Shown here one piece after another: positions 718-59,390 of a stretch of DNA of 64,000 nt (its first letter is position 1; each line of letters opens with the position of its first letter). The position numbers were made by a program, and so were the translations under genes. The notes under the pieces are model-generated. The model saw nothing but the letters and a program-made list of their open reading frames with translations. It did not search any database and had not been told where the DNA came from. This DNA comes from Berberis thunbergii (taxonomy: Eukaryota > Streptophyta > Magnoliopsida > Ranunculales > Berberidaceae), in contig QNQO01001160.1 of the NCBI GenBank assembly GCA_003290165.1, positions 186,001 through 250,000 of the forward strand, given 5' to 3'.

Positions 718-1774
718 TAGGGGTGGGCACGGGACGGGATGGGACGAGATATACCCATCCCTATCCCATCCCGTTCATACGGGATCGGGACGAGACGGGA
801 TTAGCGTGTCATCCAAAAAATGAAGATTTAATTGATTTTGCCAATTGTCCAAAAAATGGGAAAAATGAAGTCCAAAGCTCTCTGGTATAGTCCCATTCAA
901 TTGATTTTGATGAAGATTTAAGTATTGCAAGAATGGAAACTTTGTTCCAAGATCATGAGGAAAACTACCAGTGAGTTGCAGTACAAATAGAATTTCACAA
1001 TAAACTGAATGAAGTACTCGGATTCCAATAACAAACAGAATACATTTTAACAGAATTAGGAAATTCGAATACAAAATTGTTACAGACTGCAGTAGAATTG
1101 TTACAGACTGTAGTAAAATTGTTTAGAAAGTAGAATTGTCCAGCAGAATTGTTACAGAAACCAAACAAAGAAACCAAACAGCATAACTGCTGAATTGCTA
1201 GGCAGTATAACTGCTGAATTGCAGACTTAGGTAGCATAACTGAATTGCTAGGCAGCATAACTGCTGAATTGCATACTTAGGCAGCATAACTGCTGCATCA
1301 CCGCTATTCTCCTATACTTATAGAATTCATCTTTCACCTGTCATAAAGGATCAATAGTTTACTGACGACTGAACAAGGTTTAATCAGGACATGCTAATGA
1401 ACTATTGTGGTCATGCTAAACATTACAAGGTTATTTTCATTAAAATGAAGAAATTTCAGTGAAGAAGTTATTAAAAAAATATATAGAATTTCGGCTTGGG
1501 ACAAAAAATTTTGTAGGTAATAACATAACTTTCTAAAATCAAGAACACATATAAAAGGAAGAATATCTTGAATGTACATATTTATTTTCATTAGTTCGGG
1601 ACAGGACGGGATTGGCGGGATTGAAAATCTTCATCTCATCCCATCTCATTCTAGATCGGGACGGGACATGATCGGGATGAAATTATTCAATCCCATTAAG
1701 ACCCGAAAAAATCGGGACAGAACGGGAAGGGATCTGGATGGAAACGGGATCGCGGGATGGGATGCCCACCCCTA
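718..1774 (+). mobile_element. hAT-type non-autonomous transposon, copy 1
   Basis: The ends are TAGGGGTGGGCA and TGCCCACCCCTA, perfect 12-bp inverted repeats. The element is flanked by a perfect 8-bp duplication GGAATAGC (710-717 and 1775-1782), the size expected of hAT superfamily transposition. The solo LTR near 26073-26090 shows the unoccupied site with GGAATAGC only once, on its other strand. Ends are rich in GGGACGGGAT-like motifs shared with copies 2 and 3. The 1057-bp element has no transposase. Its interior holds a leucine-rich-repeat fragment and a short-period repeat around 1170-1300. Confidence 0.95.
838..975 (-). pseudogene. Leucine-rich-repeat gene fragment carried inside hAT copy 1
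   Basis: The minus strand reads LTGSFPHDLGTK then FPFLQYLNLHQNQLNGTIP then ESFG, which fits the plant extracellular LRR consensus (LxxLxLxxNxLxGxIPxxxG) of receptor-like kinases or proteins. Only about one and a half repeats are present. Downstream the reading continues into a short repeated segment with no LRR register. It is too short to be functional and is best read as a gene piece picked up by the transposon. Which LRR family it came from cannot be told. Confidence 0.7.
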
Positions 1775-10129: not shown

Positions 10130-12402
10130 TAGGGGTGGGCACGGGACGGGATGGGACGAGATATACTCATCCCTATCTCATCCCGTTCATAGGGGATCAG
10201 GACGGGACGGGATCAGCGTGCCAATCTTCTTCACTTGCAGTCTGAGTCTGAGCAGTCTGCTGAACTGCTGGACTGGAACTGCTACCCTCTTTAACTAACA
10301 AGCGAATTTCACAATACACCTGATCAGGCAATTTACTTAATATTGACCAGTTCCAATGATTTTGAATGATAATATCAACTGAGAACCTCGTCTTCTTCCT
10401 GGTTCTCTGTACTCTAGACATTTGTTTTCACAAAAATTCAAAACTCCCATCAATGTCCAAGACTTGGGAGTTTAAAAGGAAAAACCAAAATATTAGGATA
10501 CTAAAATACAGTTTTGAAATTGTTTTACAAAATCTATCAAAAGACATTTTGGTAGAAAACAATATGGGACTGGAGACTTTTTGTTCATAGTTTTTTTTAT
10601 TTTTTATGTTTTTGAAAGAAGGGCTTATCAAAATGAATTTGATTTGGATTAGTCATTTAGAGCAACAAAAATGGCAAATGCAGAGAATAAGGAATCAATC
10701 TGTGTTCTGGGTCAGGTATATGTGTATCCCATATTTTTCAAAACTTACAAAATAAAATCAATAGATGCACCGCCATCCAGAAAGCTAAAATTTACAAAAT
10801 GAGTTGTGATTCACCATGTATGGTGATGGTCAGTACAGCTTATACAATTTCCAAATCACAATATATATGGTTGTTCATTTTGAATCCTGGAACAGTACAC
10901 ATTCAAAAAAGTAGTTCAACTACAACTCATGTATTAATGGCTATTAGTTGGTGTACTTTGGAGAATACTGTAAAATGTTTCAATTTGTATCTTCGATACC
11001 TTTCAAATCATCTTTGAATTGAGTTGGAAATGGAGTTGGGATGTCAAAGGACTGAAACTTCAAACTGATGTATATTTAAGGTGCTTGACAATTGACAAAT
11101 ACACTAATCGAGCAGGAAACGTAGAAGAAAGGCAGAAAATATGTATAGTACCAGGGAACAGCAAGAAAATGGGAAGAAACCCAATGTCCATGACCAATCT
11201 AGTATCATCTAGATATCTATATGGAGGCTAGATTACTCTAGAAAATTGATCTTGTCGTCATAAGAGTTGTTCAGTAAGATGAATAGTCAACACATTTTGA
11301 TGAATAATTGTTGTGTGTGTTACCGTAAACCATGTTAACTCTGCCGCTGCATTAGCAAGACTTCTATAGCATGCAAAAATTCTGAAAACAAGAATGAATC
11401 TCACTTATAGAATACTGAAATAAGAAAGCCATCCTGACCAGTGGCAGAGAGTATTAGTTTCAATAAAATAGGTCATGAAAGTTTGTGATTCTCCATGGTG
11501 AAACAAACATATACTTGACAAGGATGGATCATGAATGGAGTCTAATAGTAACAATAGAGGTTATCGGCATTATGTTTAATTAGTTTTCACTACATAATGT
11601 AAGCGAATGCCTTATCAATAATTAATGCAAACCAGTGTGTCGAAACATCACAATCCATATTCTGATCAACAATTACTTATCACCCAGTAATTCATTGGGC
11701 TGAAAACTATACCAGCACTATGTCCTATGATATCATCCCATCTTCTGCATCACCCTCTGACTTTTTGCTGCACATGATGAAATCCCCAAACTTTATAAGG
11801 TTCAATAAGATAGATGTGATGGAATTGATCTGAATATACATTGAGAATGAGAATTGAGAAAGTGAGAACAGTATTACAAATTTAGATATGTGTGAGAGAT
11901 TCATTGAGATATTAAATAAGTAAAAATATTATATACATCAGTATATTTGTATGGGCATCCACAATTCTAAAATAAATAATTAAATAAAAATATTAATAAT
12001 TAATATTAATAAATTAGTTCGGGACGGGACTGGATTGGCGGGATTGAAAATCTTCATCCCATCCCATTCTAGATTGGGACGGGACGGGATCGGGATGAAA
12101 TATTAATAATTAATATTAATAAATTAGTTCGAGACGAGACTGGATTGGCGGGATTGAAAATCTTCATCCCATCCCATTCTAGATTGGGACGGGACGGGAT
12201 CGGGATGAAATATTAATAATTAATATTAATAAATTAGTTCGGGACGAGACTGGATTGGCGGGATTGAAAATCTTCATCCCATCCCATTCTAGATTGGGAC
12301 GGGACGGGATCGGGATGAAATTATTCAATCCCATTAAGACTCGAAAAAATCGGGATGAGATCGGAACAGGAACGGGATCGCGGGATGGGATGCCTACCCC
12401 TA
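10130..12402 (+). mobile_element. hAT-type non-autonomous transposon, copy 2
   Basis: The ends are TAGGGGTGGGC and GCCTACCCCTA, matching copies 1 and 3 with one substitution. The flanking 8-bp duplication is CCATCTAT (10122-10129) against CCATTTAT (12403-12410), 7 of 8 identical. The GGGACGGGAT-rich ends match the other copies, while about 1.7 kb of interior is different. It contains a minus-strand ORF at 10197-10421 (…DIIIQNHWNWSILSK…) and a plus ORF at 11019-11231. I recognise neither. No transposase is visible. Confidence 0.9.
11991..12320. repeat. 110-bp sequence repeated three times in tandem within hAT copy 2
   Basis: TATTAATAATTAATATTAAT recurs at about 11991, 12101 and 12211, each followed by the subterminal GTTCGGGACG-type block and ending GGGATCGGGATGAAA. 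The three units are almost identical, so the amplification is recent. Copies 1 and 3 have this block only once. Confidence 0.95.
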
Positions 12403-16240: not shown

Positions 16241-16312
<72 letters not shown>

Positions 16313-17340: not shown

Positions 17341-17992
17341 ATTTGCAATATTTTTCTAAATTTTTCTTTGAATACACTCATGCAAGTATAAGCTAAAGTT
17401 TCAGGCGTTTATGGTTTGGAAGTTGTCTTCTTCGCCAAAACTAAGGTTCAGACGCCATTCAAGGTCTAAAACCTATTTTCTGGGGATCATGAGTTAACTT
17501 CATTAAAAAGTTTGAGCAAACATATTGTATGATCTATTTGGCTTGTGTTGGTGAGATTTAGAGGAGGATTTGTAAAATCATCAAAGTTTTATATCGCATT
17601 TCATTCATGTTTCGCCAACAAACTGATCAAACTTTAAGTTTTCAAACTTCATGAACAAATAATAAATCAATGTCTTAAAGAGTTCATAGAGGTGAAAATC
17701 AAATTTGGGTGAAGGTGCAAAAGGGATTGATGTTTAAAATACTGTTGATCAACCCCTTTAATTCATGTTTTCATCACCAAAGTAGCTTGAACTTTGAGTT
17801 CTTCAACTTCTTGAACAATTGAATCGAGTTTTAAATGAGTTCCGAGATATAGAAACTTAGATCTCAGTGAAGGTGAGATGATCAAAAAACAATAAATTTT
17901 CATGTCTTCTGGAAATAACCCATTTCTACAGTGACCCCATCATGATGATGGATCTTATAAAGTTACATATGATATGAACACAGGTATATATG

Positions 17993-18094
17993 TTACCAAA
18001 TCATAGAGAAGATCCAGGCACTAAATATGTACATAGTCAAGAGAAGGCCAAAAATAGCTAAGAGTATTGAAACATACGTAACCATAGAAGCCAT
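17993..18094 (-). CDS. 33-residue hydrophobic peptide ORF beside MIR390 (unproven)
   Basis: The ORF begins MASMVTYVSILLAIFGLLLT and ends FSAWIFSMIW. It is almost one membrane-spanning segment with hardly any charged residues. It lies on the same strand as MIR390, starting about 84 nt beyond the base of the hairpin, so the primary transcript probably contains it. The longer frame, starting at 18187, would run through the precursor's 3' side, and the internal ATG (18092-18094) looks the more natural start. I do not recognise a family. It could be a real small membrane peptide, a pri-miRNA-encoded ORF, or chance. Confidence 0.35.
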   Translation of the reverse strand: MASMVTYVSILLAIFGLLLTMYIFSAWIFSMIW

Positions 18095-18177
18095 TATGGA
18101 ATGGATGGTTGAGTGTGTGTGTGTGTGTTTGTTTGAAGTTTGAAGATGACCATGACCCAACATGAGATCGAGAGTAA

Positions 18178-18325
18178 GGAGATGCAATAAAACTCAGGAT
18201 GGATAGCGCAATTAACACAAAATTATCATCACCACAAACTATACAACAACATATACATATATGCTTATGTTGGATAATTTTTATAAGGTCATGGCGCTAT
18301 CCCTCCTGAGCTTTACAGAATCTCC
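18178..18325 (-). ncRNA. MIR390: MIR390 precursor hairpin
   Basis: The minus strand carries AAGCTCAGGAGGGATAGCGC plus a final C at 18313-18293, identical to the highly conserved plant miR390. The opposite arm, 18208-18188, reads CGCTATCCATCCTGAGTTTT plus A, the expected miR390 star strand. The arms pair with the GGAGA/TCTCC base of the stem, giving a foldback of about 148 nt with the miRNA on the 5' arm, as in known MIR390 genes. Established role: miR390 is loaded into AGO7 and triggers TAS3 trans-acting siRNAs that repress ARF2/3/4-type auxin response factors. It controls leaf polarity, phase change and lateral roots. It is transcribed by Pol II; a TATA box lies about 134 bp upstream of the hairpin. 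Confidence 0.97.
18293..18313 (-). ncRNA. MIR390: mature miR390
   Basis: A 21-nt sequence on the 5' arm beginning with A, the 5' nucleotide preferred by AGO7 for this miRNA. The star strand is at 18188-18208 and pairs with a 2-nt 3' overhang as expected for Dicer-like processing. Confidence 0.95.
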
Positions 18326-18458
18326 ACTCAAAACCTTTTCGAGAAAATGACCCCTTCAAAGAGACCCATTGAAATTGAAACCACAACGTGGTGTTGAGAC
18401 GAGATGAGAAGAGATGAAACTCACTATTTGGGTGAGAGAGAAGGGGGAGATGTGGGTG

Positions 18459-18466
18459 TATTTATA
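18459..18466 (-). promoter_or_regulatory. TATA box of the MIR390 transcript
   Basis: The minus strand reads TATAAATA followed by CACCCACATCTCCCCC and a CT-rich leader, a typical plant core promoter. Transcription would start near 18430, about 105 nt before the hairpin. Inferred from position and sequence only. Confidence 0.65.
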
Positions 18467-20893: not shown

Positions 20894-22063
20894 ATCATCA
20901 ACGATTCAACATCTATCTCTTCCGTCAAGTGGCGTATTCTCATTTCCATTGTTGATAGATCTGAATGGATCTGAAGAGGAAGAAGCATATCTGAATAGAA
21001 CTGAAGAAGAGATAGTAGATTTGAAGAACTTTCCCCTCCTCATCCTCTTTCTTCTTCTTCAAATACAACAACAAAACAACGAATATCCATGATAGAGGAG
21101 GCAAAGAACACGACAACAACGGGGGAAGATAACACAACAACAAGGAGGAAGATAACACAACAACAAAGGAGAAAGATAAGAGTTTGTGCCCCACAGGAGG
21201 CGGATAGTGATAAACGAGTTTGGGTAGATGGAGGGTGGTTTATGACTGTGAGATGAGATATCTAGGGCTAGGGTATATTTTCATTTTTTTATAGGTCAGG
21301 GGTATTATGTAATTGCATAGATTAAACAGATATCCGTGGGGTGGATATGGCCAAATCTGTATCCGCTTCGAATAATAAATGAATACTATTTGAATATCTG
21401 TATCAGTCCCAACATCCATTTATCCATAATCAAAGCCACCCCAAATGAGGCGGGTGGAGCAGATATCCATGAAAATTTGCCCCACTATCATCAACGATTC
21501 AACATATATCTCTTCCATCAAGTGGCGTATTCTCATTTCCCCTGTTGATAGATCTGAATTGATTTGAAGAGGAATGAGCAAATCTGAATAGATCTGAATA
21601 AGAGATAGTAGATTTGAAAAACCTTCCCTTCCTCATCCTCTTTATTCTTCTTCAAACACAACAACAAAACAACGAATATCCCTGATAGAAGAGGAAAAGA
21701 ACGCGACAACAACGGAGGAAGAGAACACAACAACAAAGGAAAAAGATAAGTGTTTGTGCCCCACAAGAGGCGGTGAGTGATAAACGAGTTTGGGTGGATG
21801 GAGGGTGGTCTATGACTGTGATATGAGAGATCTAGGGTTAGGGTATATTTTTCCTTTTCTATAGGTCATGGGTATTTATGTAATTGCCTAGATTAAACAT
21901 ATATCCTTTGGGTGGATATGGGTAAATTCGTATCTGTCTCGAATAATAAATGGATACTGTTTGAATATCCGTATCAGCCCCAACATCCATTTATCCATAA
22001 TTAAAGCCACCCTAAATGAGGCGAGTGGAGTAGGTATCCATGAAAATCTGCCCCACTACCATC
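20894..22063. repeat. 593-bp direct tandem duplication
   Basis: ATCATCAACGATTCAACATC starts at 20894 and again at 21487 (one substitution). The following sequence repeats in the same order: TCAAGTGGCGTATTCTCATT, the CTTCTTCAAA(T/C)ACAACAACA segment, GTTTGGGT(A/G)GATGGAGGGTGG, and a GATATCC-rich end GCCCCACTA. Both units end near TCCATGAAAATNTGCCCCACTA. Related TATCC motifs at about 20440-20590 suggest a degraded transposon surrounds it. No protein is recognised. Confidence 0.85.
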
Positions 22064-29561: not shown

Positions 29562-29735
29562 TAAGGGTGGGCATGGGCATTCAATCCCGCAATTTCAATC
29601 TCAATCCCGATCGTCTCGTCTCGAATTTTTGGGTTTTATTGGGATTGATCAATCTTATTTCGATTCCATCATGTTCCGATCTAGAGTGGAATGAGATCGG
29701 GATGAAGATTCAATCATGTCTATCTCGAATTGATT
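29562..29735 (-). mobile_element. Degenerate end of the GGGACGGGAT hAT family
   Basis: TAAGGGTGGGCATGGGC is followed by CAATCCCGCAATTTC and CAATCCCGATCGTCTCGTC, then GGATTGATCAATC and GATCTAGAGTGGAATGAGAT. This is the conserved end of copies 1-3 in the orientation of copy 3, with many substitutions. No opposite end was found, so it is an old truncated copy. Confidence 0.6.
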
Positions 29736-30774: not shown

Positions 30775-33325
30775 ATTATCGATTCTGAGCCAATTTTTTT
30801 TCTTGTTACTTCGTTTTTCATCGGCCATCACATTCAACAACACCGTTTCCACACCAACAACCCTCTTTATAATGATTGTTGCTGAATTACAAGAGAAAGT
30901 CGATGAGCTTACTGCTCAAGTTACCGGGATCTCGTCCCACCTCCACACACTTGAGACCACCAATGCCACTATTCTAGAGGTATAAAGAAATCTCCAGCCA
31001 TTTAGCTCGGTACCAAACGTTCAGCCAGATCAACAATGGCCAATTATTCCTATTCCTGGCAAAGGTCTCCGTATTGATTTACCCCGTTTCGATGGAACTG
31101 ATTTGTATGGTTGGTTATTTCAGGTTGAGTAGTACCAAGAACTCAACGGGCTTACCAGCGAACAGATGATTACCATTGCTACTCTTCACCTTCAGGGTGA
31201 TGCCAACTCTTGGTACCGATGGATTCGCTAATCACTGGGCACATTAACTTGGCAATAGTTTTTGAAAGCTCTTTGCTCCCGCTTTGGCTCTCGTGAACAT
31301 ATCGATCCGTGGAGTTATATTTCCAAGTTAGTACAACGAGGCACAATTCGCTCATTTATTACCGAGTTCGAGAAACTATCTAATTTGGTGCCGGGTTTGT
31401 CTGAATCTCATCAAATTAGCATTTTTCTATCGGGTTTGCGTGTTGATATTCAAGCAGGAGTTAGGATGCTACACCCTACCAGTATTACACATGCTTTCGA
31501 GTTGGCTTTATGTCAAGAAGATGCGATTAATGCTACTCGATCTAGAGGGTCCGTCCGAAATTTTGCTTACTCTGTGACTGCTGCAAATTCTTCAACCAGA
31601 ACGTCTGTCATGGGCTGAACAACAAGAATGCCGTGCCAAAGGACTTTGCTTTAACTGCGATGAAGTATATAAGCGTGGCCATCGTTGTCTTCAGCCCCAC
31701 GTTTTGCTCCTCGAGGTTAATGAGGAAGAAGAAGACGATGCTGACGTTGAGCCTCCTATTCCGGATCACACTTTATCTGACCCTCCTCTAGAGATTTCTC
31801 TTCATGCTCTTTTTGAGTCCCCACGCCCTGAAGCCATGCGTATCACTGGACAATTAAAACACAGGATTGTCACTGTCCTTGTTGACTCTGGTTCAACTCA
31901 TAATTTTCTGCACCCGTCTTTTGCCAAACAATGTGGGTTTCCAATCCACAGCGATGGGGCTTTACGCGTCATGATTGCGGATGGTGGCCAATTGCATAGT
32001 TCAGGCTCTTGTCGGTATGTTTCCCTTAAATTACAAGATTATGAGTTCATCAATCACTTGTTCTTTCTCGGTATCACTGGATGTGATGTGGTTCTAGGTG
32101 TTGAATGGCTTTGCTCTTTGGGTGTTATTACTCGGGACTTTTTTCAAGCTGATTATGACCTTCTTGGTGGCAAATCGTACTTATACATTAATTGGCGACA
32201 ATTCTCCTATTGGTCATGTTCATGGATAGTACACCGGTCCATCGTTCTTTACGACAGGAACGTCATGACATTCTTTTACAGTTAACTCAGGAGGTTGACC
32301 TGGGCGCTTCTATTCCAGCTATCGTTCAACCACTTATTGCTGAATTTAATAAATCACTATTAAGGACAGCTTTCCAATTCCGATTCTCGATGAAATATTG
32401 GACAAACTGCACAGTGCATCGGTGTTTTCTAAGCTCGATTTGCGCTTAGGTTATCACCAAATTCGGGTTCATGAACTAGATATTTCCAAGACGACTTTTC
32501 GCACACACGATGGCCACTATGAGTTTTTGGTTATGCCCTTTGGGTTGAGCAATACCCCAGCCACTTTTCAAAGTTTGATGAATGAAATTTTTCGTCATCA
32601 CTTGCGTAACTTTGTCCTAGTTTTCTTCGATGATATATTAGCGTATAGTGCCTCACTCTTTGATCACCTTCACCATTTTTTTTATTGTCTTCGGGCTATT
32701 GCGCACTCATAAGCTTTTTGCGAAAGCGTCCAAGTGTTCTTTTGCTCAATCCTCTATTGGGTATTTTGGGCATATTATTTCGGTTCTTGGTGTTGCAGTT
32801 GACGATGATAAAATTACGAGTGTTGTCTCATGGCCGTGTCCTTATTCTTTGACAGATCTTCGTGTGTTTCTTGGACTCACTGGGTACTACCGTAAATTTG
32901 TTCACGATTATGGTAAGATTAATGCTCCTTTGACCTAGTTCTTAAAGAAATATTCTTTTATCTGGAATGATGATGCCTCCAAGTCTTTTTTTGCTCTTAA
33001 AACAACCTTAACTTCTACCCCTGTACTGGCTCTTCCTGATTTCAATGCTGAATTTTATATTGAATGTGACGCGTCTCATGGTGGCATTGGTGCGGTACTA
33101 ATGCAAAGAGGTCGTCCCCTTGCATATTTCAGTAAAGGTCTTTCTGGACGCAATTTGAGCATGTCCATTTATGATAAGGAAATGTTAGCTATTGTTGTTG
33201 CAGTACAAAAATGGCGGCCTTATCTCCTAGGTCGGCACTTCAAAATCTATACATATCATCATAGTCTCATCCTACCATCCCCAAACTGATGGTCAGACTG
33301 AAGTTACCAATCGTACCTTAAAGGC
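30775..33325 (+). pseudogene. Ty3/Gypsy gag-protease-RT-RNase H, copy 1 (broken)
   Basis: Gag begins around 30869 (MIVAELQEKVDELTAQVTGI) and is interrupted by stops near 30985, 31130, 31230 and 31257. A later gag block ends with a CxxC...GHRC zinc knuckle near 31645 (CFNCDEVYKRGHRC). Protease follows with VLVDSGSTHNF and DVVLGVEWL. Reverse transcriptase has FFDDILAYS with both catalytic Asp residues. RNase H starts with FYIECDASHGGIGAVL and continues to about 33265. After that only a 50-bp integrase scrap remains (to 33325). The family is a chromovirus, because the matching integrase nearby ends in a chromodomain. Defunct. Confidence 0.92.
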
Positions 33326-33344
33326 ACTAACAAACCAGGATGAC

Positions 33345-35896
33345 ACTTGTTAATCGTACCATCCCCAAACTTTAATGCCCATGAAACTTGGGGTAGAAGT
33401 TTAGGCCGTTTTAAGAGCAGAAAAAGACTTGGAGACATCATCATTCCAGTTAAAAAAAATCTTTCTTTAATAACTGGGTCAAAGGAGCACTAATCTTACC
33501 ATAATCGTGAACAAATTTACAGTAGTACCCGATGAGTCCAAGAAACCCACGAAGATCCGTCAGAGAAGAAAGACACGGCTAGGAGATAACACTCGTAATT
33601 TTATCATCGTCAACTGCAACACATGGACCCGAAATAATATGCCCAAGATACCCAATAGAGGATTGAGCAAAAGAACACTTGAACGCTTTCGCAAAAAGCT
33701 TATGAGTGCTCAATAGCCCGAAGACAATAGAATGATGGTGAAGGTGATCACAGAGTGAGGCACTATACACCAATATATCATTGAAGAAAACTAAGACAAA
33801 GTTACGCAATTGAGGACGAAAAATGTCATTTATCAAACTTTGAAAAGTGGCTGGGGCATTGCTCAACCTGAAGAGCATAACCAAAAATTCATAGTGACCA
33901 TCATGTGTGCGAAAAGCCGTCTTGGAAATATCTGGTTCATGAACCCAAATTTGGTGTTAACCTGAGCGTAAATCGAGCATAGAAAACACCGATGCGCCGT
34001 GCAGTTCGTCCAATAATTCATCTACAATCGAAATTGGAAAGCGGTCCTTAATAGTGATTTTATTAAGGGCTCGATAGTCAACACACATGTGCCAAAAACC
34101 ATCATTCTTTTTAACCAAGAGTACCGGTGAAGAATAAGGGCTAGTACTGGGTCGAATAAGACCTGCAACCTTCAATTCAGATACAACTTTGTCAATTTCG
34201 ACCTTTTGAAAGTGAGGATAACGATATGGCCGAACATTGACTGGATAAACATCTGGTAAAATCGAAATATGGTGATCATGTGCTCGGGCCGAGGAAGAGT
34301 GTTGGAATTGCCAAAGACATCCAAAAATTTAGCAATAAGTGGTTGAACGACAGCTGGAATAGAACAGCCCAGGTCAACTTCCTGAGTTAACTGTAAAAGA
34401 ATATCATGATGTTCCTGTCTTAAAGAACGATGGACCTGTGTACTATCCATGAACATGACCTTAGGAGAATTGTCGCCAATTAATGTATAAGTTCGATTTG
34501 CCACTGAGAATGTCATAATCAGCTTGGAAAAGTCCCAAAAAGTAATAACACCCAGAGAGCGAAGCCATTCAGCACCTAGAACCACATCACATCCAGTGAT
34601 ACCCAAAAGGAAGAAGTGGTCGTGGAATTCATAATCTTGTTATTTTAGGGAAACATCTCAACAAGAGCATGGACTATGCAATTGGACACCATTCGCAATC
34701 ATGACGCGTAAAGCCCCAACTTTGTGGATTGAAAACCCACATTGTTTGGCAAAAGATGGGTGCAAAAAATTATGTGTTGAACCAGAGTCAACAAGGACAG
34801 TGACAGTCCTGTGTTTTAATTGTCCAGTGGTATGCATGGTTTCAAGCCGTGGGGACCCGAGAAGAGCATGAAGAGAAATTTCTAGAGGATGGTCAGACAA
34901 AGTATGATCCAGAATAGGAGGCTCAACATCAACATCGTCTTCTTCTTCCTCATTACTCTCGAGGAGCAAAATGTGGGGTTGAGGACAGCGATGGAAACAC
35001 TGATATACTTCATCGCAGTTAAAGAAAAGTCCTTTGGCACGACGTTCTTGTTGTTCAGGCCATGATAGACGTTTAACACCTGGTGGTAGACTAATAATAG
35101 ACTTTGAAGAATTTGCAGCTGTCACAGGGTTAGCAAAATTTTTGACATGCCCTCTAGATCGAGTAACATTAATCGCATTTTCATGACATAAAGCCAACTT
35201 GAAAGCATGTGTAATATTGGTGGGGTGTAGCATCCCAACTCCTGCTTGAATATCAACATGCAAACCCGATAGAAAAATGCTAATTTGATGAGATTCAGAC
35301 AAACCGGGCACCTAATTAGATAGATTTTCGAACTCGGTAATAAATGAGCGAATTGTGCCTCGTTGTACTAACTTGGAAAGAGAACTACACAAATCAATAT
35401 GTTCGCGAGAGACAAAGCGAGAATAAAGAGCTTTCGAAAATTGTTGCCAAGTTAATGTGCCCAGTGATTGGCGAATCCATCGGTACCAAGAGTTGGCATT
35501 GCCCTGAAGGTGAAGAGCGGCAATGGGAATCATCTATTCGTTGGAAAGCCCGTTGAGTTTCTGGTACTACTCAGCCTGAAATAACCAACCATACAGATCC
35601 GTTCCATCGAAACGGGGTAAATCAATACGAAGGCCCTTGCCAAAAATAGGAATAATTGGCCGTTGTTGATTCGGCTGAACATATGGTGCTGGGCGAAATG
35701 GCTGGAGATTCCTTAATACCTCTAGAATAGTGGCATTAGTGGTCTCAAGTGTGTGGAGGTGGGATGAGATCCCGGTAACTTGAGCAGTAAGCTGATCGAC
35801 TTTTTCTTGTAATTCAGCAACAATCATTATAAAAAGGGTTGTTGGTGTGGAAACGGTGTTGTTGAAGGTGATGGTCGGTGAAGAACGAAGTAACAA
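33345..35896 (-). pseudogene. Ty3/Gypsy gag-protease-RT, copy 2 (broken, inverted)
   Basis: The same protein order as copy 1, read leftward: gag from 35856 region (MIVAELQEKVDQLTAQVTGI), a gag core at 35312-35533, zinc-knuckle region near 35010, protease VLVDSGSTHNF, then reverse transcriptase at 33579-34175. The RT active site reads FFNDILVYS instead of FFDDIL, losing a catalytic Asp. Sequence similarity ends in the start of RNase H near 33400, where it passes into short integrase scraps. Several frameshifts and stops are present. Copies 1 and 2 are close enough to be one family. Confidence 0.92.
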
Positions 35897-35924
35897 GAAA
35901 AAAATTTGGCTCAGAATCGATGAT

Positions 35925-35936
35925 GCTCTGATACCA
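35925..35936 (-). other. Primer binding site of chromovirus copy 2
   Basis: The minus strand reads TGGTATCAGAGC, directly after the LTR. Confidence 0.9.
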
Positions 35937-36308
35937 GATAATAGAGACCTTGACCTTTTGATTGGAGATCAAACCACCTAGATCCTTTGATTGGGGATCA
36001 ACGACCAATAAACTAAAATAAAAACTTGTATTGTTTGCCTAAACTCTATTACATCATATGTATTTATAACTGAAAGTAAAATAATACTTCCTAATTGAAT
36101 TCAAACCTAATTCTAATCAAATAATAACTCCTAATTCAAAACAAACTAATATTCCCTAAAATAATACTTCCTAATTGAATTCAAACCTAATTCTAAAAAA
36201 ACAATAACTCCTAATTCAAAACAAGCTAATATTTCCTAAAATAGAATATTGTTTTAACTAAGACATTCTAATATCAAGTAAATACTAAATAGGATTGGCA
36301 TCCTAACA
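35937..36308 (-). mobile_element. LTR between the copy 2 integrase and gag
   Basis: On the minus strand it starts TGTTAGGATGCCAATCC (36308) just after a purine-rich GGCAGCGTGGGA tract, and ends at the primer site. It therefore serves both as the 3' LTR of the integrase to its right and as the 5' LTR of the gag-pol to its left. That is the arrangement left by a tandem pair sharing one LTR, or by a one-LTR circle. Confidence 0.85.
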
Positions 36309-36316
36309 TCCCACGC

Positions 36317-37565
36317 TGCCTGAAACAATGCTTGTCCTCAAGCCTGAAAATCTGGAAAACGTACACGAAACTGCTCGTAGTCTTCCCAAGTAGCTTCCTC
36401 CACAGGACGGTTGGTCCACTCGATACGCTAGCGAGTAACAACCTTACTGTTGCGTTCAAATAATCCTCGATCAAGTAGTTTCTCCAGGATCCACGAGGGT
36501 TCATGGGCAAGAGTAGGTAAAGTTGGGTCAGGAGTAATACCATCACCTAACTTTTTCTTTAAAAGAGAAACATGGAAAACGGGGTGGATACGAAACTCAG
36601 CCGAAAGATCAAGTTTGTAAGCCACAGAACCGATCTTTTCAAAGATTTGAAAAGGCCCATGAAACTTGGGAGAGAAAGTATTGTAATTCTGAGATGCAAC
36701 AGTGAATTGTCGATATGGTTGCAGTAGTAAGAAAACCCAATCATTAACTTCAAAATGGCACTCAGTGCGCTTACCATCAGCATATATTTTCATATGATCC
36801 TGAGCCTGATGAAGGTTATCCTTGAGAACTTGCAGAGTGCGATCACGATTCCTTAAAGCAAGGTCAACGACATGAACCGTGATGCTACCAGGTATATAGG
36901 TTGAGATCTTCGGAGGTGGCCGACTATAAACAGCTTCAAAGGGAGTCATTTTGATTGCACTATGATATGTAGTATTGTACCACCTTTCTGCCCAAGGTAA
37001 CCATTTGTCCAATGGCTAGGATGATGACTAGCAAAACATCGAAGATAACACTCTAAGGTATGATTGGTAACTTCAGTCTGACCATTAGTTTGGGGATGGT
37101 AGGCTGAACTACGACATAATTGAGTATCTTGCATCTCAAAAAAGCCTACCAAAAGTTACTTACGAAAATCGGATCACGATCGCTCACAATAGAACGAGGC
37201 ATACCATGGAGGCGAGTAATATCCCGCACAAAGACTTCAACAACTGAGGTGGCGGTGTAAGGATGAGCCAAAGAGCTGAAGTGCACATGCCAAAGAACTG
37301 AAGTGCACATACTTGGATAAACGATCAACAACGACCAAAATCGTAGATTTGCGATTAGACATTGGTAATCCATCAATAAAATCCATAGAAATATATAACC
37401 AAATATCTTCGGGTATTGGTAAGGGATTAAGCAACCCAAGAGGAGAAAGAGCTTCACTCTTATTCCGTTGGCAGATATCACAATGAGAAATAAACAACTT
37501 TACAACAGCTTTCATACCAGGCCAGTCAAAATTATGTTGAAGATGTTTATATGTGCGAAGACGTT
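36317..37565 (-). pseudogene. Gypsy integrase with chromodomain, inverted copy
   Basis: The minus strand reads the zinc-binding end ([19 protein letters not shown]), [14 protein letters not shown] with the first catalytic Asp, [14 protein letters not shown] with the second, and AYHPQTNGQTEVTN with the Glu. Then come the C-terminal domain (PKFHGPFQIFEKIGSVAYKL, HPVFHVSLLKKKLG) and a chromodomain-like end (RPVEEATWEDYEQFRVRFPD, partly in a shifted frame). A 22-bp tandem duplication at about 37265-37310 and other lesions break it. Confidence 0.9.
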
Positions 37566-38395
37566 TAAGTAACTTTTGGGAGGCCTTTTTTGAGATGCAA
37601 GATACTCAATTATGTCGTAGTTCAACCTATCATCCTTAAACTGATGGTCAGACTGAAGTTACCAATCGTACCTTAGAGTGTTATCTTCGATGTTTTGCTA
37701 GTCATCATCCTAGCCGTTGGACAAAATGGTTACATTGGGCAGAATGGTGGTACAATACTACATATCATAGTGCAATCAAAATGACTCCCTTTGAAGCTGT
37801 TTATAGTAGGCCACCTCCGAAGATCTCAACCTATATACCTGGTAGCACCGCGGTTCATGTCGTTGACCTTGCTTTACGAGACCGTGATCGCACTCTGCAA
37901 GTTCTCAAGGATAACCTTCATTAGGCTCAGGACCGTATGAAAATATATGCTGATGGTAAGCACACTGAGTGCCATTTTGAAGTTAATGATTGGGTTTTCT
38001 TACTACTGCAACCATATCGACAATCCACTGATGCATCTTAGAATTACTCTAAGCTCTCTCCCAAGTTTCATGGGCCTTTTCGAATCCTTGAAAAGATCGG
38101 TTCAGTGGCTTACAAATTTGATCTTCCAATTGCGTCTCGTATCCACCCTGTTTTCCATGTTTCTCTTTTAAAGAAGAAGTTAGGTAATGGTATTACTCTG
38201 GACCCAACTTTACCTACTCTTGCAAATGAACCCTCATGGGTCCCGGAGAAACTACTTGATCAAGGATTATTTGAACGCAATAATAAGCCCGTTACACGCT
38301 GGCTTATCAAGTGGACCAGTCGTCCTGTGGAGGAAGCTACTTGGGAAGACTACGAGCAGTTTCGTGTACGTTTTCCAGATTTTCAAGCTTGAAGA
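37566..38395 (+). pseudogene. Gypsy integrase C-terminal half with chromodomain, plus copy
   Basis: It starts at the second half of the catalytic core (FEMQDTQLCRSS) and runs through GQTEVTNRTLECYLRCFASH, AIKMTPFEAVYSRPPPKIS and HPVFHVSLLKKKLG to the chromodomain end RPVEEATWEDYEQFRVRFPD. It has stops near 37637, 37923 and 38040. The zinc-binding end and first catalytic Asp are missing. No LTR follows; instead short facing LTR-end scraps are seen at about 38417-38455. Confidence 0.9.
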
Positions 38396-39038
38396 CAAGC
38401 CTTGTTCTTCAAAATAATAGAGACCTTATCAAGGTCAAGGTTTCTATTAGAACCCTTTTTTTTTTTTTTTTTTTTTATAATAAATAGGGAGGCACTAAAA
38501 AACTAGGATGACACTATGGACGTTGCGCAACAATGTGTTTTGGTATAGTGAATCCTTAATTTCTCGCGATGATATTGTATGTCTTCCATGTGTTTTGGTA
38601 GATGTCAAGGGAATGTTGGTCCCTATAGCAAGAATAGCAAAGGTTTGGTTATCCCACACCATTTTAGTAGAGAAAAAATTGCCTAGAAATTGAGCTATAT
38701 TTTGAATTTTAATTAGTTTTATTTATAATTAAGGACCTTTTTCTCGCTAAACAACTAAGGATCCTATATGTACACAAGATTGAATTATTCGTTATATCAT
38801 TTATCTCTGTTTGAGCTGAAACTATGGAGTCAACATGGTCTTGAAGCCCAAACTTTGAGTTGAACAAACTCAACACCTAAACAAAAATCTTGTATAAATG
38901 TTGAGACCTATTCGCTAATGAACCATCGAAAAAGTATTTAATTGTGAAATCCTTTAATTTAAATTTAATCTATTCTTAATAAGGTCTTCTTAACATTCTT
39001 AATTATCTAACCAAATTCAAGATTTGGCACCCTAGTAA
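38396..39038. other. Spacer with a T-run at about 38458-38476
   Basis: GGCACTAAAAAACTAGGATGACACT at about 38492 resembles GGCACTAACAAACCAGGATGACACT at about 33327, so a short flanking segment is repeated at the far side of the complex. No gene is recognised. Confidence 0.45.
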
Positions 39039-40015
39039 ATGTTGAATTCATGTTCACAAGTATTTTTTATGTGGAAGTCCATTTTTCGTTGTGCAAGTAT
39101 TTTCTACCATCACACCCCGCTTCGTGTTGATAATGGCGATCTCATATCTTTCTGGCATGATTCTTGGTGTAGCAACCAACCTTTGAAGGATTGTTTCCAA
39201 TGTTGTTTTTCATTAGCAATTAGAAAAGGGGAGAGTTAGCAATTTTTGGTTCAATATAGATTCTTGGGATCTTTCTTTTCGATGACCCCTAAATGATGGG
39301 AAGCTTGAGGATGCCGCCAATTTAATGCACCTGTTGGATATTCAGATGCTCTCAGAGGGATTTGATAGTTTGGTGTGAAAGGGTAAATGTGTGAGTTTCT
39401 CGGTTAAAGAATTTTCGGATATGCTTGTTGCATCTCATTATGAGATCCACCCCAACAGCTTCATTTTCTCCCACAAGAATCTAGTTTGGGTGAAAAATAT
39501 TTTTCTTCAGATTAATTTCTTTTGTTGGTCAGTATTGCATTAGAGGATCCTAACTAAAGACAGGTTGAGGAAGAGAGAAATCCTTGCAGGAAGTCTTAGT
39601 GTGTTTTGTAATGAGAATGATGAAACTTTGAATCACTTGATGCTTCATTACAGATTCTCCAAATCCATTTAGAATAGTTTCTTGTCAAAATTCGGTCTGT
39701 TGATGTTTCAAGGTTCCCTTTTGGATTGGATAAATTGGTGGTCCCAAGCTAATCCATCCCGGCACGCGGAGTGGTTATGACATAGGGTTCATCATGTGTT
39801 CATGTGGTGTGTGTGGAAAGAGAGAAATAAGAGGATTTTTGAAAGACTTAACAGATCGAAACACTTTATCTTTATCGAGATTAGAGAATTGTTGTGGAAG
39901 ATGAGTTTGGCTTGTAATCTCTTTAGATACTTGTTTTTTGACACCTTCACGATGTCTTTATCGAGTAGTATTTTGTTTCTCTTCTTTTCTTCAATAAAAA
40001 TTTTCGTGTTTAGAC
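39039..40015 (+). mobile_element. LINE 3' part (ORF2 C-terminus and tail)
   Basis: The plus strand reads IFRCASIFYHHTPLRVDNGD and LISFWHDSWCSNQPLKDCF, then (through stops) a zf-RVT-like block with NESLNHL-type spacing, then FMWCVWKERNKRIFERLNRS and HFIFIEIRELLWKM near the end. This is the C-terminal region of plant L1-type ORF2. The 3' tail TTCAATAAAAATTTTCGTGT leads into TTTAGACC and an A-run at 41188-41194, after the hAT at 40016-41178. It is full of stops. Confidence 0.85.
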
Positions 40016-41178
40016 TAGGGGTGGGCATCCCATCCCGTGATCCCGATCCTGTCTCGTCCCATTCCGATTTTTTTCGGGTCTTAATGGGATTGAATAATTT
40101 CATCCTGATCCCGTCTCGTCCCGATCTAGAATGGGATGGGATGAAGATTTTCAATCCCGCCAATCCCGTCTCGTCCCGAACTAATTTATTAATATTAATT
40201 CTTAATATTTTTATTTTAGAATTGTGGATGCCCATGATGAGTCTTCATTGTACAATCAATAAGATTGCTTTCTTTTCAAGAATAATTGAAACAAAAAGAA
40301 GGTTTGATATCTCCATGTCCATGTTGCAATACTAAATTCTGTATCTAAAAGTGTCATATTCACATTTCTTATGCAACTTTGTTTATGGTTCAGGTTGGTA
40401 ATGCTTTAAAAGAACTATTCTCAACATGTGTTGTGAAGCGTAGCGACCTTTGGATAACATCCAAGCTATGGTAATTATCGTCTTAATCTTATTCCATTTG
40501 AATCTCAGTGTCATTAGTTATCAAACTCATAAATGTTGTGTCTGCAGGTGTAGCGACCACACACCTGAGGATGTCTCCAAGGCATTGAGCAAGACTTTGG
40601 AGGACCTACAACTTGACTATGTAGACCTCTATCTAGTATGTTCACCCTAATACCATTTCTATTACAGATAGATAAATTCATCTTTGTGTTTTCAAGCTTT
40701 GCATGGTTTTGGCACTAATCCTTGTATAGTTGCAGCACTAGTACTATTGATAGTAATGGAAGGCATATTTACGTTTTAAGATAATTATGTGACAGATACA
40801 TTGGCCATTTAGAACAAAGCCTAGGTCTCGTGGATTCGAGCCAAATGTGCCTTCAAGATACATGGACTGCCATGGAAGGCTTGTATGCATCAGGGCAGGC
40901 ATGAGCAATCGGTGTCAGCAACTTCTCAACAAAGAAACTTCAGGACATTCTTGCCTTTGCAAAGGTGTCCCTTGCTGTCAACCAAGTCGAATGTCACCCT
41001 GTTTGGTAGCAACCTGCCCCACTGAGATTCTCCAGATTAGTACGCTGATCACGTCCCGTCCTGAACCCGTTTGGAATGGGACGAGGTCATGATGGGGTTT
41101 TTCCCATCCCGTCCCGATCCCGTATGAACGGGATGGAATGGGTATATCTCGTCCCATCCCGTCCCGTGCCCACCCCTA
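40016..41178 (-). mobile_element. hAT-type transposon, copy 3, carrying aldo-keto reductase exons
   Basis: The ends TAGGGGTGGGCA and TGCCCACCCCTA are perfect inverted repeats. The flanking 8-bp duplication GTTTAGAC is perfect (40008-40015 and 41179-41186). The conserved ends are those of copies 1 and 2, in reverse. The interior (about 40350-41045) is unrelated to theirs and consists of a gene fragment. The target is the tail of a LINE. No transposase. Confidence 0.95.
40394..41040 (+). pseudogene. Captured aldo-keto reductase gene fragment with introns
   Basis: Three exon pieces are readable. 40394-40470 encodes [24 protein letters not shown]. 40548-40635 encodes [29 protein letters not shown]. 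40796 onward encodes IHWPF, then after a frameshift [32 protein letters not shown] and [10 protein letters not shown]. Splice sites GT and AG are intact at 40471, 40546-40547, 40636 and 40794-40795. The motifs match plant AKR4C-type NADPH-dependent aldo-keto reductases, covering mid-barrel. Start, C-terminus and catalytic N-terminal part are missing. The frameshift, a stop before AIGVS and one after HPVW make it inactive. The introns show capture at the DNA level. Confidence 0.9.
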
Positions 41179-41267
41179 GTTTAGACCAAAAAAATGTTCA
41201 CAATACTAGAAAATAACCTCTAATATTTATGTTGCAGATCTCATGCCTTCTATTAAGCCATAGTATA

Positions 41268-41950
41268 CATGATCCTATGGTGGAACGCAAGGGGTGTAGG
41301 TTCTCCATGTGCGTTCTAGAATCTAAAGGCCATCTCTCGTAAATCCAAGTCATACATTATTTTTCTCTTAGAAACCAAAACCAACTCAACAAAAATGGAG
41401 TGCATTCGCCGAGGAATTGGGTTCAAACACGGAGTAACAATACCCACAAATGGACAATCAGGTGGCTTAACTCTGTTTTGGAAAGAAGGTATCCATCTCA
41501 CTATTCTTTCTTTATGCAAGAACTATTTCAACTGCATTATCGATAATTATTTTCTCAGAATACTTGATCTGCTATATTTGTTTATGGGGAATCGAACCCA
41601 TCCCTTGGGATTCAATTATGAAATAATTTGTCCCGAGTGTTGGATTACTTTACCAGGTCTCCAATGAGGAGACCTGAACTCTATCTCCCAAAGGACAAGC
41701 TGGGGGGAAGAAGGCCCACTCACTCTGTTTTTAGGCATCTAATAAGTTTCATTGATAGGTACAACCTAGTGGATTTTCCGCTCAATGGTTCTCAATTTAC
41801 CTAAAATTACAAACGTAAAGATAAGAATGGGTAAACGCAAAACTATATCGCATTTTGGTGTTTACTGATTGGTTGAACTGTTTCCCATCGGCTATATCTC
41901 ATACTTGTTGTGCTCGGAGGTGAAGGTTGTGAAGCCTCTGACACCACCAT
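41268..41950 (+). pseudogene. LINE ORF2 endonuclease domain remnant
   Basis: MILWWNARGVGSP near 41269, then KSKSYIIFLLETKTNSTKME and GQSGGLTLFWKEG, then YNLVDFPLNGSQFT near 41760 and a DWLNCFPSA-like segment near 41870-41890. These are the N-terminal landmarks of the LINE apurinic-like endonuclease (WNxRG, LLETK, GGL). Stops and frameshifts break it. No reverse transcriptase follows. It is separate from the LINE 3' piece to its left, which ends at 41194. Confidence 0.8.
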
Positions 41951-42848
41951 TACATGACATGTCTCAAGCAACGATATTGTCTCAAACTTAGACACCCACT
42001 GCGCCCGAGTGTGGGGTTCATACTACGAATGGAACTCAACTGCCACCAAAAGACCTCGTTGCTATTTGAAATATATCAAATCCTTTATTAATCTTACATA
42101 GTAATAAGCCTCATTACCTAATGTGTGACTAGACACTTTTCAATTCAAGCCAACATTTCTAACAATACTATTAGACCCATAACATATGCCTGTAACTTAA
42201 ACACTTTTTCATGTCAATATAGGAACACAATGGACTGAATGAAATAAACTGGTTTACTCATCTTTGTCTTACCCCATTGTAAATCAATTGGAAATGGAAA
42301 GCTGTTCATACTTCTATTGGTTCTCAAATCAAGGACTATGTTTGGTTCACTTTGTTTAGAGTACTCAAAACCTCTGATAGCTTGGAGACAAATATGTGCT
42401 ATTTCTGTTGTTGTTTTGCTCTGTCTTTGTCTCTGTTATTTTCAAGCCATGTCTCCAACTTTTCATGAATTAGGAATAAAACCAACTGATCAAGCTGATT
42501 TTCTTTGTCAGTCTGAGGTTTCAGTAAAAGTGACCCAAATCCCATGAATCTTTATTACCAAAAGGTGGTATGATTGATCATTAATGGCCTTTAGATTGAG
42601 AGCCCTTAAATTTTAGCACAAAATGGAAAAATGTCAAATGATTCAATTAACGTTTTAATTCCATTTTTTACAATTTTTTTTTTGACTGTGAGGTGGACTG
42701 GGAGGTAAAAAAGGCTTTTACCCTCTGCAAATGATATTGAAAATCTTCAAGATGCTTATTCTTATTCTCTCTTTAAAATGACCAACTTAACCCATTGTTG
42801 ATTTTCATTCATAGACATTAGGCAACCCAAGTTCTCTAATAGTGTTGT
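41951..42848. other. Intergenic stretch upstream of the BZR1-like gene
   Basis: No further gene is recognised; the ORF at 42317-42547 is a Cys/Leu-rich read with no family motif. The last few hundred bases are the likely promoter of the gene at 42905. Confidence 0.4.
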
Positions 42849-42856
42849 TATAAATA
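42849..42856 (+). promoter_or_regulatory. TATA box of the BZR1-like gene
   Basis: TATAAATA, 49 bp before the chosen ATG. The leader would be short (about 20 nt), so a second start or a different promoter is possible. Confidence 0.55.
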
Positions 42857-42904
42857 GAGCCAGACCAAAACCAGTCCATTTTGAAGGGAAAAGAAAAAGG
42901 AGTC

Positions 42905-43610
42905 ATGGTGGAGAAGAAGAGTGTAGTGAGGGGGTGTATAAAAACAACTAAGAAGCCATGGTTGGTGCACAAAATGAGGAAGGATGGTGCCATTGTTACT
43001 AGTTACAGGCATCCTTCCCTTCAAGAACGAGAGAAAAACAAGGAGCGTGAACGTCGCCGTCGTTCTGTGGCTGCAAAGATATTTGCTGGCCTACGAGCTC
43101 ATGGGGACTACAAACTACCTAAACACGCCGACAACAATGATGTGCTCATGGCATTGTGTAATGAAGCTGGTTGGATAGTTTTCGAGGATGGAACAATTTA
43201 TAGAAAGGTATAACAACTAAATTTATAATCTGCATAATGACATGTAGAATGTGATGATAGTTAATATTTGTAAATTTACTGAAACCTTACCATCATCATT
43301 ATCTAGCCTAAGAATACTGTCATGACTAATTTTTATAGAGTGCATTTTTCTTAGCTCTCAGTGTTTTCCAAGTTGAAATACATTTCTGACATTTTGTCAT
43401 TGTTTTCCCAAATAGGCTGACATGAAAGAAAGTTCTGAATTGGCTCAAATTTGGCCGGACGGTCAAATTAGTTGTTCGCAGCTTATCACAGAAAATTTGA
43501 ATGAGGGCGAAGAGTATTGCACATGTTACAATGATATACACTCACAGTTTGCGCCTTTTACTCATTTTGAATCATTGTCACCTAAAGGTTTGAGCGATCT
43601 ACAAAAATAA
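42905..43610 (+). CDS. Short BES1/BZR1-like transcription factor, two exons
   Basis: Exon 1 is 42905-43207 and exon 2 is 43416-43610 (intron GT 43208, AG 43414-43415), giving about 165 residues. Residues 41-54 form the basic segment [14 protein letters not shown]. Then [35 protein letters not shown] and EDGTIYRK (to 101) complete the BZR1 DNA-binding domain of brassinosteroid-responsive factors. The intron after TYRK sits at the family's usual exon 1 boundary. Family members are usually about 300 residues or more. Here the tail of 64 residues lacks the expected Pro/Ser region with GSK3 sites and the EAR-like LxLxL end. A usual Cys in the LPKHCDNN motif is Ala here. The ATG at 42905 fits best; an upstream in-frame TTG at 42881 is not a plausible start. 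Nuclear DNA-binding is likely. Whether it is expressed, or misses further exons, is unknown. Confidence 0.8.
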
Positions 43611-44882
43611 TTGGAAAGAAACAATGTCCACTTCGACCTATCTCTCCATGTATTCAATAGTGTGTTACAGTGAAATTAGTTAATAGATGTAGTTTCAGTG
43701 TATTCTCATCTAAAGGTACATGAGAGTTTGAGAAAAGCAAACTTGTTTTTGCATGTTGTTAGTGAAGATTTTGCATAGATTGAGATATGTAACAACATTA
43801 TGAATATATCTTCAAATTTCTACAGAAAGTTACATTTCATTGCATATATATTTGATGGATATCTACAAAGGAAATGATTACATAACTTAATCAAACATGT
43901 GTTTTGAAAATTAAGCATTTCCAATCCTTTCGGTATGAAAAGCCCTAATTTGTTGGTTGATTATGGAGTAAGTTAACTCTGGATTGATTGAATAGTATAC
44001 ATGTACAATAAAACATAGTTAACTATGGATTAGATTTACAAAACCCTGCCAAAATTTTAACCATTATATGTAAGCCCAGGTAAAAAGCAAGCGCGAGCTG
44101 ACAGTTGCTTAAACTGGCTTTTACTCGATTGAACACAAAGCTAGGTTGATCTGCCATCTCTTGGTTTGATGTCATTACGTTGTTATATACTGTAAGTATG
44201 AATTTCTTGGGGGAAAAATGCAGAATTCAGATCTCTAGTTGATTAAGAGAAAATAAAATGCACCTTAAGTTTACGATCAATTGCTTAAGATTGGACATGC
44301 TCTTGCTCAGCATCTGGATTATCTCACTTTAGGTTGGTTTCGGTTTAGATTCAATCTTGAATTAATCAGTTATATATCTCCTAGCCATGAAATTTCTGTG
44401 TTAAAATAGGAGACAAAAATATCTTTGCAAGTATACAAATTACAAAACCTGTCACGGAAACTTCAAAAGCTGATCTTTACTTTTCTTTTCATGATAATGT
44501 CCTCCATGCTAGCATATATTAGAAATTATTTAGATAAGTTCAAATCTCATCCGTCAATTGCACGTTGAGACGCGTATAACCATTGAAATATCTCTGTATT
44601 GTCCTGAAGAGAAAAATGCACAATTGTCATGCTTGTCTATTGCTGCCCTGTTTGAAGAATTAAAAGGACATGAAATCAGGGAAACAAAGAGAAGACAGAG
44701 GAAAAAACATAATGTTTCTTTATCAGTGTTAAAGGCTGAAAATATTCTAGTCACTTTTGTAAATATAAACTACACCATTCCATGGCACCTTCCAAACCAT
44801 TCAAGTTTTACAAGTTTCAACAACAAAATCCACTCTGTTGTTTTCAGAATCACTGGTTCATTGGGCTTATTTCATCTTCAAA
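43611..44882. other. Intergenic stretch between the BZR1-like gene and its decayed copy
   Basis: AT-rich DNA. The 115-codon ORF at 44558-44905 runs into the pseudogene and has no family motif. No RNA gene is seen. Confidence 0.4.
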
Positions 44883-49476: not shown

Positions 49477-49722
49477 GTTTTGCCATATTTTGGGAGACTA
49501 TTACTAGTTTTATAGTTGTCTTTGTGTAGGTGCGCTGATATACATGACCTTGTGTTGGCTCGATAGGCCAAACGAAATATGATTTTTTTTATCACATCCA
49601 TGACTGTATGTAACAAGTGCTTTAAAACGATGACAACCACTTGTTGATTATCTAGGAATGATTCCTCATATATATCTAGTTTCTCTTCTCATCTTCGATA
49701 AAAATCTTTGTGTTTAGCAAAA
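49477..49722 (+). mobile_element. LINE tail fragment (plus)
   Basis: It ends TTTCTCTTCTCATCTTCGAT then AAAAATCTTTGTGTTTAGC, matching the LINE tail at 39972-40015. It is absent from duplication copy 2, so it belongs to sequence gained by copy 1 or lost from copy 2. An (AT)n microsatellite follows at 49735-49772. Confidence 0.6.
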
Positions 49723-49729
49723 TATATTT

Positions 49730-49774
<45 letters not shown>

Positions 49775-49786
49775 TGACTTTATCAA

Positions 49787-50045
49787 TTTTTTTTTTTTTT
49801 GTTCAAACACGAAGAGGTTTATTAATGAAAGAAAGAGAAACAAATTACAAAGAGATACATTCTTATACCAAGGAATACCAAGACCCTATGAAAGTGTCAA
49901 AACCCAACTCCCTAAACAAATTACATGCAGTACCCATCCTCCACAACAATTTTCTAATCTCGATAAAGATAGAGTGCTCTGATCTGTTGAGTCCTTCAAA
50001 TACCCTTTTCATACTGCAATTCCCAGTGTACCAAATAGGGGCTAT
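49787..50045 (-). mobile_element. LINE ORF2 end with poly-A tail (minus)
   Basis: The minus strand reads FEGLNRSEHSIFIEIRKLLW, RMGTACNLFRELGFDTFIGS, close to the plus copy at 39830-39950. It ends in AATAAACCTCTTCGTGTTTG and an A-run (T-run 49787-49800). It lies tail-to-tail with the plus LINE tail at 49477-49722. Confidence 0.75.
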
Positions 50046-58760: not shown

Positions 58761-59390
58761 TTACGTCCTACGATTGTCTCGAGATGAATTCTCGGATATC
58801 TGACATAGCGAACTGAGGTTGCATCGTACGATCGTGTCGACAAAAACGCAAGTCTCTTCTTTAGTGTTACCAGAGGGAACATCTACGACGTAGGATTCAA
58901 CAACGACGGTTCCAAGACCGTCGTGAGAAGCGTGAAGCGTCGTAACGGAACGGTAATTGGCAAGCCGGTGATCGCCACCTATAACACTGAAGCTCATGAC
59001 ATGACGCTCGTCGTCGAGTATCTCGAGGCGTTCGGTGCTGTTGGCTGCAGGTAGGCCGGAGACGATGTGGACTTCTCTAAGAGTGCCGACGTTTCCATCA
59101 CCGACGATGACTTCGCATGATTTTACAAAGTTTTTGTAAGCTTGGGGGTTGTCGAAGCGGCGGACGACGGACCATACGGTGGCGACTGGGGCAGAGATGG
59201 TTTGAATCACGGCGGAACAGCACTGGTTAGGCCCCACCTCATGGTAGTGGTACAACACCACAGCTTCTGGTATCGTCCCAGCGCATGTTAGAGGTGATCG
59301 GTTGGTGTTTTGGTGCAACTTTGGAGAGGAGATGGCATTTGTGGTAATTCTGTGGAGTTGAAGGGTTGATCTTGGAGGCTGAGAAGGCAT
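58761..59390 (-). CDS. PYL-type abscisic acid receptor (PYL4/5/6-like)
   Basis: A single-exon, 209-residue protein. The START-like PYR/PYL/RCAR fold begins near residue 47 ([20 protein letters not shown]). Key parts are present: [16 protein letters not shown] with the ABA-carboxylate Lys86, the gate loop VSGLPA (111-115), and the latch [10 protein letters not shown] (HRL 141-143). [17 protein letters not shown] and the C-terminal helix [12 protein letters not shown] with Asn191 follow. When ABA binds, the gate closes and the receptor docks on and inhibits clade A PP2C phosphatases, releasing SnRK2 kinases. It acts in cytosol and nucleus. The intronless structure and the N-terminal extension of about 45 variable residues fit the PYL4/5/6 group. 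The first ATG of the ORF was taken. It looks intact and functional. No gene neighbour suggests co-regulation. Confidence 0.97.

Follow-up and report, generated by a model that had tools for sequence, protein, structure and literature searches.

A 1163-bp element was located at positions 40016-41178 of the 64,000-nt stretch of Berberis thunbergii DNA analyzed here (the window). The element is very probably a non-autonomous transposon of the hAT superfamily, of the Pack type, which carries a piece of an AKR4C gene taken up with its introns. A hAT element holding aldo-keto reductase (AKR) exons and introns had been proposed in a first-pass annotation of this DNA and the proposal is supported here. 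Three complete copies were found in the window, and in 3/3 the ends were common while the interiors differed. The element is called c3 below and the other two copies c1 and c2. The coordinates of all three are collected in Table 1.

Table 1. Parts of element c3 and related copies, in window coordinates
Feature	Positions	Strand	Details and basis
Left 8-bp target duplication GTTTAGAC	40008..40015	+	Flank comparison
Left terminal inverted repeat TAGGGGTGGGCA	40016..40027	+	
5' end module, subterminal CCCGTCTCGTCC-type repeats	40016..40235	+	~170 bp in common with c1, ~220 bp with c2
Captured DNA upstream of first exon	40236..40393	+	Ends in CAG; probably the 3' part of an AKR intron
AKR4C exon piece 1	40394..40470	+	Last codon split by intron; Pfam, alignment with relatives
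Intron kept	40471..40547	+	GT-AG, 77 nt
AKR4C exon piece 2	40548..40635	+	Pfam, alignment with relatives
Intron kept	40636..40795	+	GT-AG, 160 nt
AKR4C exon piece 3	40796..~41041	+	IHWPFRTKP start; two in-frame stops, ~14-nt deletion; cut off at 3' module
3' end module	41042..41178	+	Opens with ACGCTGATC as in c1 and c2; ~47 nt of extra subterminal repeat
Right terminal inverted repeat	41167..41178	-	
Right 8-bp target duplication GTTTAGAC	41179..41186	+	
c1, copy 1, 1057 bp	718..1774	-	Duplication GGAATAGC 8/8; leucine-rich-repeat piece inside (moderate)
c2, copy 2, 2273 bp	10130..12402	-	Duplication 7/8 (CCATCTAT/CCATTTAT); no recognized gene

Ends and target duplication

Element c3 opens with TAGGGGTGGGCA and closes with its exact reverse complement, giving perfect 12-bp inverted ends. 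The end pair of the element family is TAGGGGTGGGCA with TGCCCACCCCTA. The same 8 bases, GTTTAGAC, flank c3 on both sides (8/8 target duplication bases). A six-copy family of 21-nt repeats was confined to both ends of c3 in the region examined (39500-41700). With up to 2 mismatches allowed, the end motif occurred 10 times in the window compared to 1.96 expected, and 10 matches were reached in 0/100 shuffles. In the pair search, the two ends could be up to 8 kb apart, each could deviate from the motif at no more than 2 positions, and 7/8 or more of the duplication bases had to agree. The window contained three such pairs, and 30 shuffles of two-base blocks yielded 0. Relaxed pairing, in which an end could have up to 2 or 3 mismatches and 6/8 duplication bases sufficed, still returned only the pairs of c1, c2, and c3. 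Pairs at 6283-7037 and 14309-21444 emerged only at 4 mismatches per end and were left uncounted, the shuffle control covering up to 2 mismatches. The motif counts and pair shuffles ruled out a chance origin of the inverted ends, and the 12-bp ends and perfect duplication described in the first-pass annotation were confirmed.

The 8-bp target duplication that characterizes hAT elements was present at all three copies (8/8 in c1, 7/8 in c2, and 8/8 in c3). The short terminal inverted repeats were 12 bp in length and perfect in 2/3 copies, one end of c2 agreeing at 11/12 positions. Subterminal repeats, also a hAT feature, were found in both ends of c3. The letters of the 12-bp ends presumably resemble those of known hAT ends. 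A literature search for the exact end sequence gave a sole match, which by its title is a paper on morphine tolerance in rats.

Aldo-keto reductase interior

The interior of c3 (~40236-41041) contains three consecutive exon pieces of an AKR4C-type aldo-keto reductase and both of the introns between them. The DNA ahead of the first exon ends in a CAG at 40393. Spliced together, exons 1 and 2 encode VGNALKELF...DLYL with residues neither lost nor added. In the alignment with relatives the exons meet at SKLW-CSDH and DLYL-IHWP, again with no residue lost or gained, and the N-terminal IHWPFRTKP of exon 3 is as in relatives. Two GT-AG introns were kept and the template was therefore genomic DNA, not mRNA. 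An mRNA retrocopy is ruled out by the presence of the introns. The AKR match terminates at the start of the 3' module.

The Pfam domain Aldo_ket_red (PF00248) was predicted in the concatenated pieces with an E value of 1.7e-16. In the three plus frames of unspliced c3 the same domain matched at 4.9e-08 (exon 3) and, in another frame, at 0.0061, which is under the cut-off. The best match in a search of solved structures was 3h7u (E = 2.6e-42, among the best 60 of 155 matched sequences), which we take to be AKR4C9. In a database search with the joined piece, 7996 candidates sharing most words were scored. Among the best 120 of 7962 matches, the top single-domain plant relatives had 80% identity across the whole joined piece and were outranked by ten entries of 60-71% identity, nine of them 405-550 aa and one 349 aa in length. 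Aligned with seven selected plant relatives, the piece was 71-79% identical to them.

Exon 3, read by eye, has in-frame stops at two positions that are R and Q in relatives, and ~14 nt are missing. The AKR piece is a pseudogene piece because of these two stop codons and the deletion. As regards AKR4C membership, identity to plant AKR4C proteins was found and an intact reading frame was not. The exon pieces with intact splice sites reported in the first-pass annotation were recovered as three exons and GT-AG introns, but the coding frame is broken.

A decayed AKR piece is what would be seen if c3 were simply an AKR pseudogene, or what is left of such a gene, with ends that arose by chance, and not a mobile unit. 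That explanation is scarcely credible in view of the perfect 8-bp duplication, the pairing of the ends, the recurrence of this end pair in two further copies, the lack of such pairs in the 30 shuffles, and flanks without an AKR domain.

Related copies in the window

The end modules common to c1, c2, and c3 are 92-97% identical. Over the parts that could be aligned among the three copies, with gaps omitted, the 5' modules have 92.3-93.5% identity and the 3' modules 94.0-97.4%; one of the three repeated stretches of c2 was used for these figures. The 5' module extends to approximately base 220 of c3 in c2 and c3 and to only approximately base 170 in c1. The interiors of the three copies had no mutual match at an E value of 1e-3. 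In an all-against-all comparison of the copies, matches were limited to the end modules and repeats, besides a short internal repeat within c1. A Pack-hAT family with conserved ends and differing interiors, as put forward in the first-pass annotation, is thereby supported in the window. The differing interiors suggest that the DNA between the conserved ends may have been swapped.

The differing interiors also bear on the possibility that the AKR interior is the old, high-copy interior of the whole family, produced by one ancient capture followed by amplification, with c1 and c2 as exceptions. This is quite improbable as the AKR interior is present in 1/3 copies in the window. An AKR interior common to all members, with no parental gene elsewhere, had been named beforehand as an outcome that would speak against a family of this kind, and the three copies in the window do not have the AKR interior in common.

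The interior of c1 gave a match to LRR_1 with an E value of 0.0024, its bit score lying under the Pfam cut-off. Searched against solved structures with phmmer, c1 matched a plant receptor kinase with an E value of 1.4e-31, which is the sum of many weak repeat matches, none of them significant alone. The leucine-rich-repeat piece noted earlier in c1 is thus upheld at moderate confidence, as a prediction from domain and protein matches. No recognized gene was found in the c2 interior by six-frame Pfam scans, which gave one match below the cut-off. A database search with a chosen 68-aa frame of c2 gave 3 word-sharing candidates, none at an E value of 0.1 or lower. Gene capture is therefore firm for one copy and moderate for one, and is not seen in the third, c2.

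No transposase families were found in six-frame Pfam scans of c1, c2, and c3. Apart from Aldo_ket_red and LRR_1, the only matches in these scans lay far under the cut-offs and were to Ig_ENGASE1_C (E = 0.15, c2) and PID_2 (E = 0.086, c3). With a host gene fragment inside it (AKR4C-type exons) and no transposase of its own, c3 has two features of a Pack-TYPE element. The longest closed reading frame in the window, with ATG, GTG, or TTG as the start, is 292 aa.

Two further observations concern the ends of the family. In c2, a stretch of ~110 bp of the 5' module is present at 11988-12321 as three tandem units that are 98.7-99.1% alike, likely a recent gain inside a transposon end. Positions 29562-29715 hold a related element's 5' end in diverged form (TAAGGGTGGGCA), which is 70-72% similar over 105-151 bp. 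The pair search of the window gave no partner with a duplication for this end.

Inner 3' border

The switch from interior to 3' module occurs at the same word, ACGCT[AG]ATC, in 3/3 copies. Across the three copies the first 20 nt of the 3' module agree at 17-19/20 positions and the 20 nt just inside at 5-8/20. The border can be placed to within only a few bases because c2 and c3 agree at 6/10 nt just inside it. As a control, the window was searched for places resembling the c2 border, and ten 20-nt places matched at 16/20 or better. Three of the ten were the borders themselves (20, 19, and 18) and seven were in 5' modules (16-17). Since those seven places in 5' modules match it at 16-17/20, the border word is one of the variants of the subterminal repeat.

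A shared border could indicate uptake at a fixed inner position, the 3' end acting like a cassette socket that is repeatedly loaded with host DNA, as opposed to random gap filling. We regard this as improbable. It is weakened by a border word that is itself a repeat variant, by the lack of a fixed 5' border, and by the small number of copies (three). The common inner 3' border is one mildly unusual detail which may be worth following.

Insertion site and surroundings

A LINE-like tail precedes c3 and a short A run directly follows it. Elsewhere in the window, two more tails of this LINE-like kind run past the corresponding point without an element. These uninterrupted tails would be consistent with an empty site, and this is suggestive, not proved, because the match to the tails reaches only a few bases past the junction.

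If AKR exons continued outside the element at this locus, capture would be called into question, as the first-pass annotation pointed out. Translated in all six frames, the 2.5-kb flanks of c3 (37500-40015 and 41179-43700) contained no AKR domain. An AKR gene running through the site is ruled out by these flanks. The plus frames of the flanks encode a zf-RVT domain of a LINE at ~39.5 kb and, near 38 kb, a Tf2-1-like SH3 domain accompanied by weak matches to a chromodomain and an integrase. The minus frames of the same two flanks gave no domain matches.

Several other features were observed in the window. Two LINE-like tails at 49660-49860, in opposite orientations, resemble the host tail of c3. 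Fragments of retroelements, located on both strands at 31704-38176, include aspartyl protease and Tf2-1-like SH3 domains. The N-terminal domain of a BES1/BZR1 transcription factor was predicted at ~43004-43219 on the plus strand, ~1.8 kb downstream of c3. An ORF at 58761-59390 on the minus strand encodes an abscisic acid receptor of the PYL4 type. Among the best 120 of 2287 matches to this ORF, the top-scoring was from Jatropha (73% identity over 99%) and the highest identity was 80% over 82-85%, in Lithospermum and Liquidambar. Many angiosperm orders were mixed among these matches.

Comparison with published hAT elements

Capture of gene fragments by hAT elements is an already published kind of event and c3 adds a further example. 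The first-pass annotation had considered capture less described for hAT elements, and this has to be revised as it is better documented in the accessible parts of four papers (PMC2528002, PMC3260210, PMC8903248, PMC8277862).

In the accessible part of the grapevine study, Hatvine-6 has common ends and a variable part with frequent matches to introns and exons of genes (PMC2528002). It resembles the family described here in its common ends, with the rest often unique, and in the host introns and exons of its variable part; 8-bp duplications are given there for high-copy hAT families. It differs in that its members share a transposase coding sequence, whereas c1, c2, and c3 have none by six-frame Pfam scan.

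In maize, Ds2-22 carries exons 5-6 of an ILR1-like gene together with the intron, according to the accessible text of the report (PMC3260210). Gene fragments are described there in 2 Ds2 and 9 Ds-l4 elements, and the authors call capture rare for hAT. The Ds2 and Ds-l4 elements are similar to c3 in being non-autonomous hAT elements with conserved ends (~200 bp in Ds2) and a variable filler that is sometimes genic DNA with an intron. Their subterminal repeat is AAACGG compared to a CCCGTCC-like repeat here. A second difference, as far as the accessible text goes, is that the donor gene of Ds2-22 is identified in maize, while the AKR4C donor of c3 is putative.

The Pack-hAT elements of maize and rice likewise have 8-bp duplications and gene-derived interiors, and some copies are close together, as given in the portion of the study available (PMC8903248). 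They are from different plants, and local hAT pairs are in the same orientation in 12/15 cases there compared to 1/3 here. For animals, 208 hAT Pack-TIRs are given out of the 370 named in the abstract (PMC8277862). These have hAT ends with duplicated host sequence, as c3 does. They differ in their animal hosts and in that nearly all are single copy, a gap-filling origin being discussed for the single copies in the accessible part of that paper.

Route of uptake

The two end modules, made up of a 12-bp terminal inverted repeat and ~90-220 bp of subterminal repeats, would supply what is needed for cut-and-paste movement. A hAT transposase made elsewhere would move the element. The DNA between the modules would have been replaced by a genomic piece of ~805 bp, copied with its introns from a putative host AKR4C donor. 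The most likely route of uptake is error-prone or template-switching repair of a break in the element. Repair uptake with host DNA as the filler is favored because the introns were kept and the borders are abrupt. The loaded element would then have entered the tail of a LINE remnant and produced the 8-bp duplication, as the structure of the site indicates.

The main rival departs from this explanation only in the route of uptake. Two nearby family copies flanking an AKR stretch would have moved as a unit and their inner ends would then have been lost, a model put forward for Pack-TYPE elements including hAT in the accessible part of PMC8903248. Three family copies do lie within 41 kb, but no end motif with up to 2 mismatches is present between 40028 and 41166. 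The extra subterminal repeat of ~47 nt in the 3' module of c3 is a possible relic of a second end, yet an inner 3' border at the same word in every copy is unexpected if inner ends were lost at random. On balance this neighbor fusion is a possible but unlikely origin of c3. Either break-repair filling or neighbor fusion may have been the route, neither being proved.

As a hAT element carrying host exons with their introns, c3 is a clear, countable example that is useful for understanding how cut-and-paste elements gain genomic DNA. If the common 3' border holds across many copies of the family, it would make it easier to distinguish between template-switch repair at a preferred site and the fusion of neighbors.
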